Shown piece after piece: positions 509 through 16,432 of a stretch of DNA of 25,438 nucleotides. Under the pieces are notes generated by a model. That model worked only from the letters and a program-made list of their open reading frames with translations. It did not search any database and was not told the origin of the DNA. The stretch is from a virus. Position 1 is the stretch's first letter. Every line of letters begins with the position of its first letter. Position numbers and translations under genes: made by a program. The stretch covers positions 1 through 25,438 of the IMG/VR virus record IMGVR_UViG_3300030061_003881. One strand, written 5' to 3'.

Positions 509-1354
509 TTAAAATGGTAAATCATCATCCTCAAATAAATCATCAAATTCATCTGATTTTGCTTTCTTAGGTGATCCTTGTGATGCTAAACTAAATGCTT
601 TTTTAGATTCAGTTTTTGTAGTATTATTTGTATTTCCATCAAATTCAACTGCTGGTTCTGATACTATTGAATCTTCACTACCTTCATTTCCTGATATGAA
701 ATTTTGTAGCTCATCTTTTAGTTTTTCATAAGTGTACTTATATCTTTCTTCTAATAATTTTGGTTGATTTTCTAACCATGTACTTACTTGATTAGCATCT
801 TTACTTAATGGTGTTTGTTTTGGTTTTGGTCTTAAACTAAGAGCAAATCCTGGTCTATCAACTACCTTAGAGGCGTTAACAACAAAATCAAATCCTTCAG
901 CTACATCTGTAAAATCACCATAATCTTCATCATCAGCAATTGATAATAATTCCATATAAATGGTTTTACTAAATTCAAATAAACGAACACCCTTATCCTC
1001 TTCTCCTCTAACAACAACAGGAGCAAATAATCTTAATTTTGGATCTAACTTTTTAGCTAATCTCCAATTTTCAGAATCACTTGTTGTTCTTAATTTTTTA
1101 GTAAAATCTACTATGGGATCTTGTTCACCCCAATTTGTTAATGCTACTATTGGATATTTTCCAACTCCATAATGCATATAAACCTCCTGGAATGGGTTGT
1201 TTTTGTTTATTAATGAAGGAACAAATCTAATTTGATATTTTCCTTCCTGTCTTGGCTTCCAATAGACTAATGTGTAATCTTTTTTCTCACCTGTTTTTGG
1301 TTTAGAATCCTTATTTAAAGATTCCAAACGATTTTTAATCGCGTTTAAATCCAT
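509..1354 (-). CDS. gp32: gp32-like single-stranded DNA-binding protein
   Basis: The 281-residue product resembles T4 gp32 in length and layout. It has a short basic N-terminus, then a KYQIRFVPS strand matching the gp32 'AVIRFLPS' segment, an OB-like core to about residue 180, a helical region to about 225, and a low-complexity acidic tail. The role is coating ssDNA during replication, recombination and repair. Two points are odd. T4 gp32 binds zinc through a Cys/His cluster, but no cysteine occurs anywhere here. The last residues are DDDLPF, very like the DDDIPF tip that bacterial SSB uses to recruit partners. The gene lies directly upstream of the UvsX-like gene and has its own promoter-like element at 1383-1414. 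Family assignment rests on pattern and context. Confidence 0.83.
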   Translation of the reverse strand: MDLNAIKNRLESLNKDSKPKTGEKKDYTLVYWKPRQEGKYQIRFVPSLINKNNPFQEVYMHYGVGKYPIVALTNWGEQDPIVDFTKKLRTTSDSENWRLAKKLDPKLRLFAPVVVRGEEDKGVRLFEFSKTIYMELLSIADDEDYGDFTDVAEGFDFVVNASKVVDRPGFALSLRPKPKQTPLSKDANQVSTWLENQPKLLEERYKYTYEKLKDELQNFISGNEGSEDSIVSEPAVEFDGNTNNTTKTESKKAFSLASQGSPKKAKSDEFDDLFEDDDLPF

Positions 1355-1382
1355 ACTTATAACTTTTTAAAATAATAATACT

Positions 1383-1414
1383 TAAATATAATGAGAGTTT
1401 GACTGAAGGCCAAA
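1383..1414 (-). promoter_or_regulatory. Bipartite promoter-like element before gp32-like gene
   Basis: On the coding strand this reads TTTGGCCT, 12 bases, then TCATTATATTTA. The same two blocks with the same spacing occur at 3141-3172 before the polymerase gene. TTTG followed 20 bases later by TATATTTA closely matches the Bacteroidetes housekeeping promoter (TTTG about 19-21 bases before TAnnTTTG). A 6-bp inverted repeat (AGTTTG/CAAACT, 1396-1416) overlaps the upstream box and could be an operator or simply chance. The element ends 28 bases before the ATG. Confidence 0.6.
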
Positions 1415-1421
1415 CTATGAC

Positions 1422-1895
1422 TTATGAGAGGTCAATTATATCGTGAATTTTAGTGTTCAGTTGTTTTAAATCCCCATGCTGAGTGAGTAAAACACAGTTT
1501 CTATAATGTTGCCAGTTAATTGGGAATTTGGTGTCAACTACACCACCATTAAGCTTTTTGATTAACTCATTTAAGGCATTTATAGTATATAATGTATTTG
1601 TTTCTTTCTTCCTATGTACTAAAATAGTATTTGGAGGAATTTCTCCCACATTACCTTGATCAACATTATAAGTGATCACGTACTCATCATTGCTTTTGAT
1701 ATAAAGAACAAACATTTTATTATACATTATAGTATATGTAGTTGAAAGTTCTTTGACTTTAGACTCAATCTCCTCGGATTTCACAAAAGTACAAAATAAT
1801 TTATTATTCAAATCTCCTAAATTTATTAAATTGTCATTGTCATATTCTATGGTATACATATCAAGAGTTTGGTCAAAAGTCATAATTGGTTCCAT
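1422..1895 (-). CDS. Hypothetical protein downstream of the PolA-like gene
   Basis: I do not recognise this protein. The frame is open back to an ATG at 1934, but that start would overlap the polymerase gene by about 60 bases. I prefer the internal start MEPIMTF at 1895, which overlaps the polymerase stop by 23 bases; ATG 1883 is also possible. From 1895 the product is about 157 residues, mixed alpha/beta, with no signal peptide or membrane segment. The C-terminal third contains INWQHYRNCVLL and ends in a helical KIHDIIDLS. The overlap implies translational coupling to the polymerase, so a role in replication is a reasonable guess but is not shown by any motif. Confidence 0.65.
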   Translation of the reverse strand: MEPIMTFDQTLDMYTIEYDNDNLINLGDLNNKLFCTFVKSEEIESKVKELSTTYTIMYNKMFVLYIKSNDEYVITYNVDQGNVGEIPPNTILVHRKKETNTLYTINALNELIKKLNGGVVDTKFPINWQHYRNCVLLTQHGDLKQLNTKIHDIIDLS

Positions 1896-3135
1896 GTGTA
1901 ATTTTTGTATTAAGTTTATGTTTTTTAAATACACCTAATATACGTTCTAGTGTATCTCTTTCAGAGTTTTTGAAATCTAATAAGAATGCATCATATGTGT
2001 ATAAAACTAATTTTGTATCTTTATTTTTTAATATTTTAATTATGTCCCATAATATATAGACATTTTTTGCAGTTTCAAAATTTTGTAGTAGATAATTGAA
2101 TAATTTTTGGGGATTCATGTTATCTAACTTAGACTTTTCAAATTTATATTTTGAGAGAGGGCATTTAATAAAACCTTTATTTTGAAAATCATTCCACATA
2201 TTATCTATGAATTTTTGGATTTTCTGAAAAAACTCAAGATCCCTATACTGCTCAAATACACCCCCATAAAGCTGTTTAAACGTAAGCTCTTTAGATTTTT
2301 TGTAATCCACCCCATACATTTGTGCAAAGGATTTATGAATATCATCAGTATCGAACTTATAATCAATAAGATAACTTGCAAGGGTAGGATGATAAGCAGA
2401 AATATCAATTTCAATAAATCTGTCATTCCTCGGTATAAACGCTTTCCTACATCCATTTTCTTTATTTAACGCTGCGAAGTTAATCCCTCCGAACCTATTT
2501 GAGGGTCTAGTTGTTGTGGTTCTGTAGTTATATTGTGTGTACACTTTATCTCCCAAATCTTGGTTGAAGTGTTCTCTGAATAACTCGGGAGAAACTCGTA
2601 TACCATTTCTTTCGATAGCGTTGAATACCAATGGTACACTGTTGTTGTAAAAGTTGTTGATTGGTTCATTGAAGTATTGTTTTAAATTATGATAATTTTT
2701 TTCACATGTTTCATAATGTTTAACGATAGGAATAATTCTGTTAATATCCAACTTATCTTTGTTTCTTTGTTCTAAAATTTGATGAGCTTTTGTAGTTTCC
2801 ATCTCATATTCAGGGCAAAGTAAAGAAATATCATTTATATTTCTACGCGTAAAATAATGCAGAAATTCTTTTTTCCCCCAAACATGCAACAAATCATATT
2901 TATTAATTAAATGTGCAATGTACTCGCTGTCTAATGGCATAGATTCACTATGGTTTATTGATATCATGTATCCTTTACTTGCATTTATAGGACGTAAGTA
3001 TACAAGAGATACTTCTGTAATTGTTGGATGAGTTTTGTATGAGTAGGGAATAACTTCTATATAAGCTTCCTTATGATATTCTTTATTCTGGTATAAATTC
3101 CAGAATTGTTCACTATTTTCTACTAACCAAAACAT
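1873..3135 (-). CDS. Reduced family A (PolA-like) DNA polymerase
   Basis: Residues 205-390 carry the family A polymerase motifs in order. TTTTRPSN at 206-213 and GGINFAALN match the 'TxTGRLSS...NLQN' block. Motif A is IEIDISAYHP, with catalytic Asp244. Motif B is KKSKELTFKQLYGG (279-292), equivalent to the O-helix K...F...YG. Motif C is YTYDAFLLDF, with Asp382 and the usual His replaced by Tyr. The product is 420 residues, shorter than T7 polymerase (about 700) or Pol I (about 930). The N-terminal 110 residues look like a decayed exonuclease fold without the D-x-E motif. The motif A glutamate that acts as steric gate appears to be His249. T4 itself uses a family B polymerase, so this may be the replicase of a divergent lineage or an accessory enzyme. 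A promoter-like element lies immediately upstream. Confidence 0.75.
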   Translation of the reverse strand: MFWLVENSEQFWNLYQNKEYHKEAYIEVIPYSYKTHPTITEVSLVYLRPINASKGYMISINHSESMPLDSEYIAHLINKYDLLHVWGKKEFLHYFTRRNINDISLLCPEYEMETTKAHQILEQRNKDKLDINRIIPIVKHYETCEKNYHNLKQYFNEPINNFYNNSVPLVFNAIERNGIRVSPELFREHFNQDLGDKVYTQYNYRTTTTRPSNRFGGINFAALNKENGCRKAFIPRNDRFIEIDISAYHPTLASYLIDYKFDTDDIHKSFAQMYGVDYKKSKELTFKQLYGGVFEQYRDLEFFQKIQKFIDNMWNDFQNKGFIKCPLSKYKFEKSKLDNMNPQKLFNYLLQNFETAKNVYILWDIIKILKNKDTKLVLYTYDAFLLDFKNSERDTLERILGVFKKHKLNTKITHGTNYDF

Positions 3136-3140
3136 TTGGC

Positions 3141-3172
3141 TAAATATAATGAATAAATTTTATGAGGCCAAA
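3141..3172 (-). promoter_or_regulatory. Bipartite promoter-like element before PolA-like gene
   Basis: On the coding strand this reads TTTGGCCT, 12 bases, then TCATTATATTTA. It is identical in both blocks and in spacing to the element at 1383-1414. The upstream box lies inside the last codons of the preceding structural gene. The downstream box ends 5 bases before the polymerase ATG, so a transcript starting here would have an extremely short or no leader. It resembles the Bacteroidetes -33/-7 promoter with one mismatch in the -7 box (TATATTTA for TAnnTTTG). Confidence 0.6.
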
Positions 3173-3801
3173 TAATATTTAGTATAATTTTCTTTGAAAA
3201 TTGAACTAAACCCATACCATTTAAACTTTTTTTCTATAAGAGATACAATGTTTTTGTTTGTATTATAAACTTTTTCAATATCCCCAGTTAGGGACCATGG
3301 AAGTTGAATTGATGTATATAAATCAAAAGCTATTGTTGGTGTTTTAGATGATAATAAATCTGATGTTTGTTGGTTTATTTCAAAATATAAAAGTTCATTA
3401 TTTTTTTTACAGAAATATCTTTCAAACTCTCCTAATTGATAACTAGCTGTGTTAGGTATAGGTGAACTTGGGGGAGGTAGTAGTCTATTTTTTGATGTAT
3501 TTGAAATATTGGCATATTCTAAGTTAATACCTGTAATTTCTGGTAGGCTGTAACTTTCATAACTTTTACTTTGTACTACTATTTCATTTTTTAAAAAACT
3601 ACCATCAAGATTTTCATCAGTTGGTTGGGGGTTAGGGGTGAGTCTTCTTATTGGTGGGGTATTTGGTGTTTTACCTGTGAAAAATTGATTTGATGATATC
3701 ATATGGTAAAAACCAGTATATCTTTCACCTGTGGAAGTTAGAAAAAAATCTTCCCCATTTGTGTATAAATTAGTTTTTATTTGTGATTTTGGATAGTACA
3801 T
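3160..3801 (-). CDS. Hypothetical structural protein, last gene of the tail/baseplate run
   Basis: The 213-residue product is not assignable to a named T4 gene. It begins YYPKSQIKTNLYTNGEDFFL and continues with an aromatic-rich segment, GERYTGFYHM...FFTGKTP (residues 25-50). A proline-rich linker spans roughly 45-62 and a second one about 105-115. The C-terminus is helical with many aromatics. No signal peptide or membrane segment is visible. The ATG overlaps the stop of the hub gene as TAATG, so the two are probably translationally coupled. Its position at the end of the baseplate cluster suggests a virion or baseplate component. It may be cotranscribed from the late region, because no promoter-like 9-mer precedes it. 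Confidence 0.75.
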   Translation of the reverse strand: MYYPKSQIKTNLYTNGEDFFLTSTGERYTGFYHMISSNQFFTGKTPNTPPIRRLTPNPQPTDENLDGSFLKNEIVVQSKSYESYSLPEITGINLEYANISNTSKNRLLPPPSSPIPNTASYQLGEFERYFCKKNNELLYFEINQQTSDLLSSKTPTIAFDLYTSIQLPWSLTGDIEKVYNTNKNIVSLIEKKFKWYGFSSIFKENYTKYYLAS

Positions 3802-9943: not shown

Positions 9944-12307
9944 TTAAGCTGAGTAGAGACTACCAAATGGGTCATCCATTTCTACCGTTTTATTTGCTTT
10001 TGTAGATATTACTAATTCTTGCAGTAGTGAATTTGTTTTTCTTTGTTCTCTTCTTTGTTCTTTTCTTTCTTGTCTTAGTTCTTGTCTTGAAACTTCATCA
10101 ACACCACCACCACCTATTGATGGTTTAGTTCCCATATTTGGACCCATAGATATTCCATCTTGTTTTTTTCCTTGAAATATAGTTCCTAATCCTGGACTTG
10201 TTACTATAGGACCACCATTAGGGTCAATTCCCATATCACCTACTTGTTTTGGTTTTGATATTTTGTTAAGCATCATCATCCCCCCAGCCATTGAAGCTAA
10301 AACAATTGCTGCTCCTACACCAAAGGTTAAAGAAGCATTCATAAAGAAAGCAGCGGCTCCTATAGCCACTAATAAAGAAAGAATAGCACCTAATGGTCCA
10401 TTTATTGATTTTGCCCATCCTAAAATAGCTGTAATGGGTGAAAGAATAAAATTAACAACTTCTAAAACACCTGTTATTATTGTAAAGATTGATGAAAGTG
10501 CTGGTTCCATAGCTACAAACACTTCTTTCATTTTTTCAACTGCTGCTGTAAAATCTTCTTGTTTACTTGTTTGATCCATTAAATTTTCAATACCTTCTTC
10601 TTCTAATTTTCTTTGGGCTCCTTCTACTCCATATTGTTCTATTAAATTATTTAATGTTTCTCTTCCTAATCCCTGATCTTTTTCTGATAATGCTACTAAA
10701 GCTTCCCTTTCCATAAGAGTTTTGGCTAATGATTCTCTTGTCATTCCAGCTGCCTCTGCTATTGCCTCTTGTTGGATTCTATTCATGTTTGAGAAATCAG
10801 CTGATGTTCCAATTTCTCTTGATATTTCCTCTGCTACTGTTTTATAGTCGTTATTTAATGCTGCTAATCTAGCTCTTTCTAAATTAATATTTCTACCTAA
10901 TAATAACTCAGCTTTTAATTCATTAGTAATAGAAGATTCAAAATTTAACAATGCATCAGCTGACGACTCTAACTGTTCCATTGTCATTCCTAATGATTTA
11001 GCTGTAGCTAATGCTTCACCTAAAGCTCTAGCACTTCCCCCTAATGATAATTGAATAGCAGAACTTGTATTACTTATAGCTTTTAATAAATCTTTATCAT
11101 TTATTAAAACTTTATTATTATATGCTGATATTTTAGCTTGTGCTAAAAATTGAGCTGTGTTATCATCTAAAGATTGACCATTTAAAAGACTTAATTTATA
11201 AGTCCCCATTATTTCTTCATTAGTTAATCCTGCTTGTTCTCTTAGTTTAGTAAATAATGCTAATTCCGCATCTGCAAATACAACACTAGTTCCTAATGAT
11301 TTATTTATTGCCATCAAGGATTCTTGTAAAGCTCTAGTATTAAGGTAAGTATCATTTGATAAAGCAGCAAAAGCTGTAAGTTCTCCTCTTACTCTAGATG
11401 CTTCCCCAAAGGTCATATTCATACCTTTAGCCATATCTCCTCCTGCTTTATCTGCTAATTTAAAAGCTTTAATCATTTCAGTTATGAGGAAAATAGGAAA
11501 TGCCTTTTTCATTAATGGACCTAAAGATTTAGCTCCTGCTTTTAAGGATAGCATTCCTTTTTTGGAAGCACTCATACCCTTTAACCTTTGGGCTGCTGCT
11601 CTACCTGATAGGTTACCTAATTCTTTTTCTAAACCTAATTGTTTTATTTTTTCTTTTGTTAATCCTTTACCTCCACTATCAGCTGCAGATTCAATACCCT
11701 GAGCCATTTTACGAGCAGCATCTGAGGCGTTTTCAAATCCTCCAGAGAATCTACTTAAACCTGGTATTGCTTTTGTTATATCTTTTAATCCCCCAAATGT
11801 TTTTACACCTAGATTTTGATTTATTTTTTTAGTAATTTCAAGTACTTTTTCAGATCCTACAAGGAATTCTTTTTGTGCTTCAATTGATCTTTTAATCTCT
11901 GCTGTTTGTGCTTTACTAAGATTTCCGTATTTTAAAGCATTTTGTAATTCTTCAAATCTTATTTTTGCTTTTTGTTGAAGTTTTTCAATATCTTTAGCAT
12001 CAGCTTCTACTTCACCTTTTTTAATTTCTAGTAATTTTAACGCAATACTAGAAATACCTCTTAATGCAGATTTAGATTGGGAAAGGTATGTGTTTTGTTT
12101 AGAAAGTTCATTTACACTATCTCTAAAAGAATCAGCGATAAATTTTAAATCGCTGTTCATTTCATTTAGATCAGTTCGTAAACCACTTAAATAAGTTCTT
12201 GCTATTTTTAAGTCTTTTTCATCAAATATAGGGGGAGTTTGACCTAATTGCTTTGAAAGTTTAACTATCTCAGCATTTATTTTTTTTATATCATCCGCAA
12301 GACTCAT
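9944..12307 (-). CDS. Tail tape measure protein (gp29-like)
   Basis: The 787-residue product has the layout of a tape measure protein. The first 180 residues are charged coiled coil. An Ala/Gly-rich helical middle follows, with long heptad-like stretches. A block of hydrophobic membrane-type segments lies at about 605-682 (IFTIITGVLEVVNFIL, AILSLLVAIGAAAFF and GAAIVLASMAGGMMML). After a Gly/Pro-rich linker there is a very basic helix of RQELRQERKEQRREQRK type near 740-758. It sets tail length inside the tube and is injected ahead of the DNA. The gene directly follows the tail tube and the frameshifted chaperone pair, the standard order for long-tailed phages. A hydrophobic patch at about 265-280 may be a further membrane-active segment. 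Confidence 0.85.
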   Translation of the reverse strand: MSLADDIKKINAEIVKLSKQLGQTPPIFDEKDLKIARTYLSGLRTDLNEMNSDLKFIADSFRDSVNELSKQNTYLSQSKSALRGISSIALKLLEIKKGEVEADAKDIEKLQQKAKIRFEELQNALKYGNLSKAQTAEIKRSIEAQKEFLVGSEKVLEITKKINQNLGVKTFGGLKDITKAIPGLSRFSGGFENASDAARKMAQGIESAADSGGKGLTKEKIKQLGLEKELGNLSGRAAAQRLKGMSASKKGMLSLKAGAKSLGPLMKKAFPIFLITEMIKAFKLADKAGGDMAKGMNMTFGEASRVRGELTAFAALSNDTYLNTRALQESLMAINKSLGTSVVFADAELALFTKLREQAGLTNEEIMGTYKLSLLNGQSLDDNTAQFLAQAKISAYNNKVLINDKDLLKAISNTSSAIQLSLGGSARALGEALATAKSLGMTMEQLESSADALLNFESSITNELKAELLLGRNINLERARLAALNNDYKTVAEEISREIGTSADFSNMNRIQQEAIAEAAGMTRESLAKTLMEREALVALSEKDQGLGRETLNNLIEQYGVEGAQRKLEEEGIENLMDQTSKQEDFTAAVEKMKEVFVAMEPALSSIFTIITGVLEVVNFILSPITAILGWAKSINGPLGAILSLLVAIGAAAFFMNASLTFGVGAAIVLASMAGGMMMLNKISKPKQVGDMGIDPNGGPIVTSPGLGTIFQGKKQDGISMGPNMGTKPSIGGGGVDEVSRQELRQERKEQRREQRKTNSLLQELVISTKANKTVEMDDPFGSLYSA

Positions 12308-13446: not shown

Positions 13447-13935
13447 TTAGAAATTTAATACTGCGTAATCTAATCCTAATGTTAATTCGATTTGTTTAGC
13501 TTCGTTTTCTGTATCCCAGTTGTAATCACCGAAAGTAGCTTCTTTAATAAATGCTCCTTTTAGTATCCATTCTGAAACGATATCACCTACAGGTCCTAAT
13601 ACATTTACTGTAAGATCTTTTTTATAGAAATCTGAATAACCATCTCTACCTGTTACTGATTCATGTCCTAAACGAACCCATTCCATAACGGCTTGAGCAC
13701 CTGATGGAGTAATTGGATCGAATAAAGTCATGGTAACATCATTCCATACTGATTTACCCTTAACTTTTCTAAGGATGTTGATGTGGTTTAATATAACTTC
13801 ACCTTGTGTTAATGAAATTGCGCTTATCCCCTTAATAATAAAGCTTGGTATACCATCCATATAAAGGATGAATCTGTTAGCTTGCTTCGGTTCAAACGCG
13901 GTGAAGAATATTTCGTTAGGATCTAGTACTGCCAT
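13447..13935 (-). CDS. gp19: Tail tube protein gp19
   Basis: The 162-residue product matches T4 gp19 (163 residues) in length and layout. It has NRFILYMDGIPSFIIKG near the N-terminus, VTMTLFDPITPSGAQAVMEW in the middle, a D-LTVNVLGPVGDIVSEW strand, and the terminal IELTLGLDYAVL. It polymerises as hexameric rings to make the inner tube through which DNA passes. It directly follows the sheath gene and is bounded by its own motif upstream and a strong terminator downstream, so it can be transcribed as a short, abundant message. Confidence 0.93.
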   Translation of the reverse strand: MAVLDPNEIFFTAFEPKQANRFILYMDGIPSFIIKGISAISLTQGEVILNHINILRKVKGKSVWNDVTMTLFDPITPSGAQAVMEWVRLGHESVTGRDGYSDFYKKDLTVNVLGPVGDIVSEWILKGAFIKEATFGDYNWDTENEAKQIELTLGLDYAVLNF

Positions 13936-13981: not shown

Positions 13982-16054
13982 TTATGCTGGAAAAGTTGCT
14001 CCAGTTGGTAATATATTGAAATCTAGGTAGATAAATTCAGCTGTTTTAGTTGGTTGAATATAAATTTGACCTATCATTTGGTTTCTATCAATAACATCTG
14101 GTGTATTGTTTGAATCGTCCATTACTACTTTAAAAGCATATAATCCTTGTCTTTGTTGAACACTTGCTAAATATGGATTAACTTGTGTTAAGAAGTTATT
14201 TCTTGTTGCTATTGTGTTTTGTTCAAATACTAAGTTATCAGCAATTTGAGAAATGTATGATTTTAATTCAATTAATAATCTTCTAACATTTACTCTATCT
14301 AATGCTGATGCTGCTGTTTGTAATGTTTTCTGACCAAATACTACTACACCTGAATTAGGGAATGTAGCAATTGGATTTACATTAGCTTGGTATAAAGTAT
14401 CTCTATTACCATTTGTTAATTTTCTTTCTGCTCTTAATACAGTTGACATTCCACCTCTACTTAAACCTGCAGGTGCAAACCATGCTTCTCCTGCTCTATC
14501 ATTAAAGGCAAATACACCTGGCATCATTGTTGAAGCTGGTACCCAAACTTGAGATCCTAAATCTGGATCAATCGTTTGAACCCATGGCCAATACGTTGCG
14601 GCATATGAAGAATCTACAGATGATGCTTCATTTATTACTGAATTAATTTCTGAATTGTAATTTCTTAAATCTATTATAGATAAATTATCTCCTCTTTGCT
14701 GAGAAGTGTCTATCATTGTAGTTAATGGAGCTGAGTGGCTTTGTTTTGTTAAACCTGGTGCTACTATTAAATTATATCTATATTCATCTTGATTAGATAA
14801 TAAGTTAATTGAATTTGTATAATTGTCAGCTACTAATCCTTGAGTTTCTGTTCCTATGTTTTCATAGAAATTTCCTACAGTTGTAACAAATGGAGTACCT
14901 TCAGCTGCTCCCATTGCACCTGATGCGGCTACTGGTATTGATGCTGTGTATTCTGTTTTAGCATTTCCTGCATTATCAAAATAATTTAAAGTTTTGTAAG
15001 TTACATCTTTAACCCTTACATATCTACTTAATGTGTTATAAGTTCCTTCATTTTTAACATAATACTGACCGTTATCTGATGTTACTATTTGTTTTGAATT
15101 TCCTATTACTTTTTCAATGTAGTTTGAAGCATTTGGATCTAATGATAAATTAGACCAAGTCTCTAATACTGTTTTAGATGTTGTAATATCATCACCTCTT
15201 CTAATTAATAAACTAAATGTACCTGAGGCTGTATTTGGTGAAACAACTTCCCATCTAATATTATCTCTAGTACCATTAGTTAAATCTCCAGCTGCACCCT
15301 GAGAACCTGAGCTATTTTGATCAGTTCCTTCTGAAAGTGTTTCTAAAGTAAAGGCTGAGTCACTTACACTATCAGTTCCTCCTGCAAATGTAGCATATAC
15401 AGGAGCAGAACCCCCTATTATTTGTCCTAAAGATCCTGATGTTATAGTTTCACCATTAAAAGCAGTTCCTGCTGATGATGCTGAAATTGATATGGTATTT
15501 CCACCCTCATCATTTGCTACAACAATACCATTTAAACGTAAATTAACAGTATCTATAAATCCTGCTTTTGAACCTGTAAAGTAAAACATACCTATACCTG
15601 GTTGGTTTCCAGTAAATGAAGTAGATATAAAAGATTTAGGCCCATCAGGTGTTGATATTTGTAAACCATTAAATGGACCAGGAATACCATATTCAAATGT
15701 AACTGTTGATGTTAATCCTGCTACTGCGGTTTTATTATTTGGTATAACAGAACTAGTTGCGCTAGTGTAAGAACCACTAACTACTCTAGTCACCAATAGT
15801 GAATCTCCTCCTTGTTGGAAATAATTATATGCTGCTATTGAAGTCAAGTAAGTGTATTCTGCACTTCCACTTTCTACTATAGCTCCGAATCTGTTTTGAT
15901 AGTCACTATATGTAGTAACTAATGTTGGGATGCCTACTGGACCTTTTACTGTTGGACCTAATATAGCTGCGCCAGCTTGTATAGGTTGCGCTTGAAGGAA
16001 TGAATTGTCATTCTCGTTAGCTAATACACCTGGTGATAATAATACTTCTGCCAT
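13982..16054 (-). CDS. gp18: Contractile tail sheath protein gp18
   Basis: The product has 690 residues; T4 gp18 has 659. The N-terminus has LSPGVLANENDNS and GAAILGPTVKGPVGIPTLVT, the usual sheath start. A variable, Ser/Thr/Gly-rich surface region fills about 90-370. The conserved C-terminal domain (about 560-690) carries VVVFGQKTL, RVNVRRLLIELK, LYAFKVVMDDSNNTPDVID and the final EFIYLDFNIL strand. These form the interlocking domain that contracts around the tube during infection. The variable insert is typical and may face outward. It has its own motif 22 bases before the ATG. Confidence 0.95.
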   Translation of the reverse strand: MAEVLLSPGVLANENDNSFLQAQPIQAGAAILGPTVKGPVGIPTLVTTYSDYQNRFGAIVESGSAEYTYLTSIAAYNYFQQGGDSLLVTRVVSGSYTSATSSVIPNNKTAVAGLTSTVTFEYGIPGPFNGLQISTPDGPKSFISTSFTGNQPGIGMFYFTGSKAGFIDTVNLRLNGIVVANDEGGNTISISASSAGTAFNGETITSGSLGQIIGGSAPVYATFAGGTDSVSDSAFTLETLSEGTDQNSSGSQGAAGDLTNGTRDNIRWEVVSPNTASGTFSLLIRRGDDITTSKTVLETWSNLSLDPNASNYIEKVIGNSKQIVTSDNGQYYVKNEGTYNTLSRYVRVKDVTYKTLNYFDNAGNAKTEYTASIPVAASGAMGAAEGTPFVTTVGNFYENIGTETQGLVADNYTNSINLLSNQDEYRYNLIVAPGLTKQSHSAPLTTMIDTSQQRGDNLSIIDLRNYNSEINSVINEASSVDSSYAATYWPWVQTIDPDLGSQVWVPASTMMPGVFAFNDRAGEAWFAPAGLSRGGMSTVLRAERKLTNGNRDTLYQANVNPIATFPNSGVVVFGQKTLQTAASALDRVNVRRLLIELKSYISQIADNLVFEQNTIATRNNFLTQVNPYLASVQQRQGLYAFKVVMDDSNNTPDVIDRNQMIGQIYIQPTKTAEFIYLDFNILPTGATFPA

Positions 16055-16369: not shown

Positions 16370-16432
16370 TAAATGTTTTTGTTAAAATATATAAAAATTT
16401 AAGGGAAAACAAATTATTTTTTAAATAACTAA

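Follow-up and report, generated by a model that had tools for sequence, protein, structure and literature searches.

Two repeat copies ahead of gp32 and polA probably belong to a family-wide promoter class in phages related to Flavobacterium phage immuto

Results

The locus and the two repeat copies

The window, i.e. the whole stretch of DNA analysed, is an entire IMG/VR record of 25,438 bases. It is a phage fragment whose main genes lie on the minus strand, and the nearest cultured relative found was Flavobacterium phage immuto. The phage family would comprise T4-like myoviruses related to immuto, with the Bacteroidetes probably being their host group. The features relevant here were as follows:

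509..1354, minus strand: gp32-type single-stranded DNA-binding protein, 281 aa (PHROG 1192/224, E ~1e-13 to 1e-12; PF08804, E 4.7e-11)
1377..1378, minus strand: predicted gp32 transcription start, 4–5 nt past the box (F. johnsoniae distance, available text of PMC6847099)
1383..1414, minus strand: putative promoter element, site 1 (gp32); TTTGGC at 1414-1409, -7-type box TATATTTA at 1390-1383; exact copy
1396..1416, minus strand: site 1 hairpin with TTTG in the 5' arm (folding energy -7.7 kcal/mol, z -3.85; none of 200 shuffles was as stable)
1422..1934, minus strand: ORF between polA and gp32, without a confident family, ending 7 nt ahead of site 1
1873..3135, minus strand: small family-A DNA polymerase (polA), 420 aa, 37% identity to the immuto 'DNA polymerase family A'
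3135..3136, minus strand: predicted polA transcription start, at the A of the ATG or one base upstream of it (box position plus the F. johnsoniae distance, available text of PMC6847099)
3141..3172, minus strand: putative promoter element, site 2 (polA); TTTGGC at 3172-3167, box TATATTTA at 3148-3141; exact copy
9944-12307, 13447-13935 and 13982-16054, minus strand: examples of genes with a late-type ATATTTATAA box in the upstream segment

The repeat pair described by the first-pass annotation was exact. TTTGGCCT-N12-TCATTATATTTA occurred twice in the window, on the minus strand, at 1414->1383 and 3172->3141, and the distance of 20 bases from TTTG to TATATTTA was confirmed at both sites. The chance expectation for the window (100 shuffles) was 0.00 exact copies and 0.01 copies at ≤3 mismatches. 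Site 1 ended 28 nt upstream of the gp32 ATG at 1354, and site 2 ended 5 nt upstream of the polA ATG at 3135. The 5' half of site 2 overlapped the end of the upstream ORF 3160-3801.

The polA protein was not recognized in Pfam, PHROG and PDB sequence searches. Its predicted fold resembled the Klenow fragment 1kfd (Foldseek E 2.5e-14; mean pLDDT 78.9). A second, longer gene annotated as a family-A polymerase is present in immuto at 37898-40231.

Conservation ahead of gp32 and polA

Relatives of gp32 were found at 68 viral loci. The upstream set comprised 66 of them (two had too little upstream sequence) and the window, and 32 regions were left once near-copies had been removed. The site 1 element was found in 31 of these 32 distinct regions at a score of ≥10 of 14 and in 29 at ≥11; shuffled regions of the set reached a score of 10 in 14% and of 11 in 2%. 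The distance from the box to the ATG was 24–33 nt in 30 of the 31 element-bearing regions.

For polA, 37 viral loci were found, 33 of which (four were truncated or had short upstream sequence) formed the upstream set together with the window. After the removal of near-copies, all 26 distinct regions carried the site 2 element at a score of ≥10 of 14 (25 at ≥11). The box lay 4 nt ahead of the start codon in 11 regions and 5 nt ahead in the other 15. Taken over both genes, the element was kept across dozens of relatives, down to about 51% gp32 identity.

The start codon of polA was checked in 38 sequences (the 33 loci of the upstream set, three further loci, the window and immuto). The first codon was ATG in 23 and TTG in 15. 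Variation was 0.28 at third codon positions, compared with 0.10–0.12, and an in-frame stop was located ≤12 nt upstream of the start in 24 of the 38. By this codon check, the polA start codon is real. In many relatives (L079, L081, L084 and others), the -33 position ahead of polA read GGTGG and the start codon was TTG; this GGTGG apparently encodes the Gly-rich end of the preceding gene.

A class with fixed spacing across the genomes

The class consensus would be TTG(GC)-N18-TA(T/A)(A/C)TTTA, with TTG at -33 and an A/T box that spans -12 to -5. In 106 loci (1.30 Mb) that had not been fetched by motif, [TC]TTGGC-N18-TA(T/A)(A/C)TTTA was found at 48 distinct places with a spacing of 18 and at ≤2 with any other spacing from 12 to 26. 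These loci provide the unbiased count, because two of the relatives, G002 and G003, were first met via one motif hit each. TTTGG-N19-TA(T/A)(A/C)TTTA, which places TTTG at about -33, was found 59 times (distinct) in loci not fetched by motif.

The element was strongly biased to the gene strand. TTGGC and TANNTTTN at exactly 18 bases occurred 21, 34 and 7 times on the gene strand and 0, 2 and 0 times on the other strand in G001, G002 and G003, respectively. In G001, 21 of 22 spaced pairs on the gene strand had a gap of 18, compared with 0 of 6 antisense pairs. The flank of the TTG depended on the lineage, with GGC in the clade of the window and GTTGC in immuto, where the GTTG form with the same geometry was found 30 times on the gene strand and twice on the other.

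Upstream segments contained the element in 19 of 78 cases in G001 and in 36 of 88 in G002 (shuffles 0.1, antisense 0), and the GTTG-N20 form was present in 25 of 88 segments of immuto. Only two signals stood out in the upstream segments: the TTGGC-N18-box element and the late ATATTTATAA. The latter was found in 8 of the 15 upstream segments of the window, ahead of structural genes. It shares an ATATTTA core with the element described here, but has no TTGGC upstream at the fixed spacing. Hence, the comparison of upstream segments supported the earlier claim that the repeat is separate from the late 9-mer.

The repeat had also been said to sit only at DNA metabolism genes. This holds within the 25-kb fragment, but not in the relatives, where the element occurs genome-wide. 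Further copies did precede replication genes there (DNA ligase, DNA polymerase B and thymidylate kinase). In immuto, however, 23 of 34 elements were located in 16 kb (60.6–77 kb) of small hypothetical genes, while the head and tail genes (46 kb) had one element. In G002, 16 elements fell into one 10-kb bin. These positions did not bear out a class of middle promoters that specifically marks the switch to DNA metabolism. Of the letters regarded as extra by the first-pass annotation, GGC proved to be conserved across the class, whereas TCAT was one of several variants and had no class-wide conservation.

G002 carried the same element with the same flanks at both record ends (positions 52-83 and 154769-154800), which suggests a complete genome with a terminal repeat. 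In Microcystis phage Mel-JY01, no TTGGC-N18-box pair and no late ATATTTATAA were found (140,000 of 190,001 bases), and the element was absent from its gp32 and polA (38% and 31% identical). As Mel-JY01 is also more distant, divergence and host are confounded in this comparison.

Distance between the box and the start codon

The census covered 325 elements, 25 of which were left out because an ATG-started ORF of 40 aa was absent from the next 70 nt. The box-to-ATG distances of the remaining 300 fell into two groups, with 44 elements at 4–5 nt, only two at 9–12 nt and a broad hump from 13 nt upwards. The share of short distances (20%, 61 of 300) is overestimated and that of long leaders underestimated, because many loci were fetched with a pattern requiring an ATG within 30 nt; the shape of the peak inside 30 nt is not affected by this pattern. 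Among motif-independent loci, 44 elements had a distance, 13 of them ≤12 nt, and 9 of those were at 4–5 nt.

The short distance was not restricted to polA. Thirty-five of the 44 elements at 4–5 nt preceded other genes, and the short-distance group included DNA ligase, DNA polymerase B and thymidylate kinase. Independently annotated starts of immuto coincided with short-distance elements at 16431, 20739 and 52406. The box was 4 nt ahead of the ATG in three DNA-ligase-like genes (L130:13564-14655, L170:2463-3563 and L196:3555-4649), one of which was confirmed by profile and two by similar N-termini.

If transcription starts 4–5 nt past the box, the 5' end of the message would fall on the start codon in the short-distance genes, and a gp32 message from site 1 would have a leader of about 23–24 nt.

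Discussion

Probable promoter identity and host-type geometry

We consider both sites to be members of a family-wide promoter class (probability about 0.8), judging from sequence comparison. The bipartite promoter with Bacteroidetes -33/-7 geometry proposed by the first-pass annotation is supported, and the copies at gp32 and polA are kept in relatives. In the available text of PMC6847099, the F. johnsoniae promoter has a box TAHHTTTG at -12 to -5, a start 4–5 nt later and a weak -33; the G at the last base of the box is nearly invariant. In Bacteroides, the spacing within the consensus TTTG/TAnnTTTG is variable (available text of PMC7366714). The phage element shares with the Bacteroidetes sigma-ABfr/sigma-A promoter the -33 TTG, the -7 TAnnTTT, the range of the gap and the expected start 4–5 nt past the box.

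Both sites in the window have the TAnnTTT pattern with A as the last base, and the last base was A in all 85 spaced elements (21 of 21 in G001, 34 of 34 in G002 and 30 of 30 in immuto), where the host promoter has G. Moreover, the phage TTGGC (or GTTGC) is strongly conserved at a single spacing, in contrast to the weak -33 and the variable spacing of the host promoter. The geometry is thus of host type but fails in one defining base, because A replaces G at the end of the box. Recognition by unaltered host sigma-A is therefore doubtful. The polymerase would be the host core with sigma-A or with a phage-altered sigma-A, starting 4–5 nt past the box.

Alternatively, TTGGC and the A-ending box might be read by a specificity factor that the phage encodes or carries in its virion, either a sigma-like protein or a sigma-remodelling activator. 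We regard this as a realistic possibility that falls short of the favoured reading. The A-ending box in 85 of 85 elements and the lineage-dependent TTG flank fit such a factor, and the host-type TAHHTTTG was not enriched in the upstream segments (5 of 78, 5 of 88 and 0 of 88, with 4.2, 4.9 and 3.6 in shuffles), a result that rests on simple ORF calling. In addition, TTTGGC-N18-TATATTTA was found 8 times in 60 Flavobacteriales genomes, compared with about 6 (≤7) for the reversed control, which is chance level. Canonical host boxes 4 nt ahead of ATGA numbered 20 among the matches listed for 30 genomes, with 5 for the reversed control. TTTGGC-N17-TTATATTTA-N4-ATG gave 23 matches in 84,980 cellular species genomes, spread over many phyla; we estimate this to be the order expected by chance. 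A host promoter was rejected as the identity of the element, which occurs only at chance level in the cellular genomes covered.

However, TTG-N20-TANNTTT otherwise fits the host geometry, no RNA polymerase subunit was found, and the sole sigma-like protein found was weak, below the cut-offs, and could serve the late class. This protein (G002 L142:1330-2031) matched sigma region 2 with PF04542 at E 8e-4 and TIGR02937 at E 6e-4. An ORF around G001:29133-29249 also had a weak sigma region-2 match. Both may be late sigma factors of the gp55 kind, and the one in G002 could alternatively be the specificity factor. A search for sigma region 4 found none in 7 records. A search for a T7-type polymerase (PF00940), run without a working control, led nowhere.

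The polA message

Site 2 falls into the 4–5 nt peak, which equals the published Flavobacterium distance from -7 to the start, and the polA message is therefore probably leaderless, with its 5' end at the first codon. In all 26 distinct polA regions, the box was 4–5 nt before the true start codon, as is expected of a leaderless gene. Against this, TTG is an unfavourable leaderless start (15 of 38), and most of the TTG clade has a weak -33 (GGTGG).

In the host phylum, leaderless messages are rare, with a share of 5.5% in F. psychrophilum (available text of PMC9723704). According to the authors of the AR9-phage study, they are common in phages (available text of PMC5312081), so leaderlessness as such is not a new finding. 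In a bacterial survey (PMC3160421, available text), leaderless genes had a -10-type box about 10–12 nt before the start. The element shares with these genes a promoter box immediately ahead of the start codon. The survey reports the type in one of 37 Bacteroidetes/Chlorobi genomes, whereas here this position of the box is seen in a family of phages that belongs to the same host group, and it is conserved at polA.

It is unlikely, in our view, that site 2 acts as an internal promoter of the genes that follow polA, with polA being translated from read-through messages and the closeness to its start codon being incidental. Other genes of the same strand do immediately precede polA, and a leadered message would agree better with the TTG starts seen in 15 of 38 relatives. 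However, the box keeps its distance of 4 or 5 nt in all 26 distinct polA regions, and 35 of the 44 elements at this distance belong to genes other than polA, both of which speak against an incidental closeness.

Timing

From the gene content and the lack of another candidate class, we infer that the class is an early or pre-late promoter and not a dedicated middle one, because most immuto copies precede small early-looking genes and the only other class seen is late. A true middle-type promoter, at which a phage activator reads GGC(CT) and TCAT and switches on DNA metabolism genes, is quite unlikely. Elements ahead of replication genes have the same -33, spacing and box as those ahead of small genes, the TCAT of the window is common to few elements, immuto has nearly one variant (TTC) throughout, and no separate early class was found in the upstream segments.

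The distribution of variants nevertheless speaks for a middle-type promoter in part. Non-TGT variants (including the CAT of the window) were located outside the densest cluster more often than TGT in G001 (13 of 16 vs 3 of 11, p 0.015) and in G002 (9 of 13 vs 3 of 24, p 0.0008), although the cluster window for these tests was picked after the data had been seen. Non-TGT variants were also more frequent at ≤8 nt from the start (47 of 182 vs 14 of 118, p 0.003), and some precede replication genes. To some extent, an early/middle division within the class is thus conceivable. TCAT as an essential part was rejected, as several variants occur.

The MotA box of T4 is 12 ± 1 bp from the -10 (available text of PMC2988021). 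This geometry was rejected for the element, in which the gap from TTGGC to the box is 18 bp, the spacing of a -33 element. Like T4 early and middle (MotA) promoters, the element forms a phage class with a host-like downstream box ahead of prereplicative genes; it differs from the MotA promoters of that text in the gap and probably also in extending beyond middle genes.

Hairpins

In part of the elements, TTGGC/TTGC forms the 5' arm of a hairpin that has T-rich sequence behind it, similar to an intrinsic terminator. The fraction of elements with MFE ≤ -4 was 0.26 of 27 in G001, 0.54 of 37 in G002 and 0.29 of 34 in immuto, and the mean z was -0.73, -1.49 and -1.09, respectively. The site 1 hairpin was kept in close relatives, with compensating changes in one (by eye), and probably serves the upstream gene as a weak terminator that forms part of the promoter. 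Site 2 had no stable hairpin by RNA fold. Such hairpins likely allow the upstream message to be ended and the next one to be begun within the same 30–40 bases.

That the repeat is a terminator or another structured RNA signal and no promoter at all is very improbable: such hairpins, with a z of -3.85 at site 1, occur in part of the elements, but most G001 and immuto elements and site 2 lack a stable one, on which ground a terminator-only reading was rejected, and a terminator has no need of rigid spacing to TATATTTA.

Significance

Messages of the host phylum lack Shine-Dalgarno sequences, and little has been published on how Bacteroidetes phages programme their transcription. In the open-access literature searched, we found no paper on promoter motifs of early genes in Flavobacterium phages. 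To our knowledge, and within the literature searched, the family-wide class, the A-ending box and the conserved overlap of promoter and start codon at polA are new.

Whether the host or the phage determines recognition can be clearly tested by means of the final box position, with A in the phages and G in the host. The short-distance group makes leaderless translation testable, and immuto is a phage of a named Flavobacterium host. All non-late promoters seen combine an A-ending box with an extension of the -33 that is specific to the lineage and not used by the host, so the polymerase might be re-aimed by a phage factor that is borne by the virion or made very early. On this tentative and rather doubtful reading, the phages would possess a transcription specificity of their own right from the first minutes, and the same promoters would feed a leaderless route for some of the genes, including polA, DNA polymerase B and DNA ligase. 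As the class is rigid and easily recognized, it may be used to map operons and to predict timing in many environmental phages.
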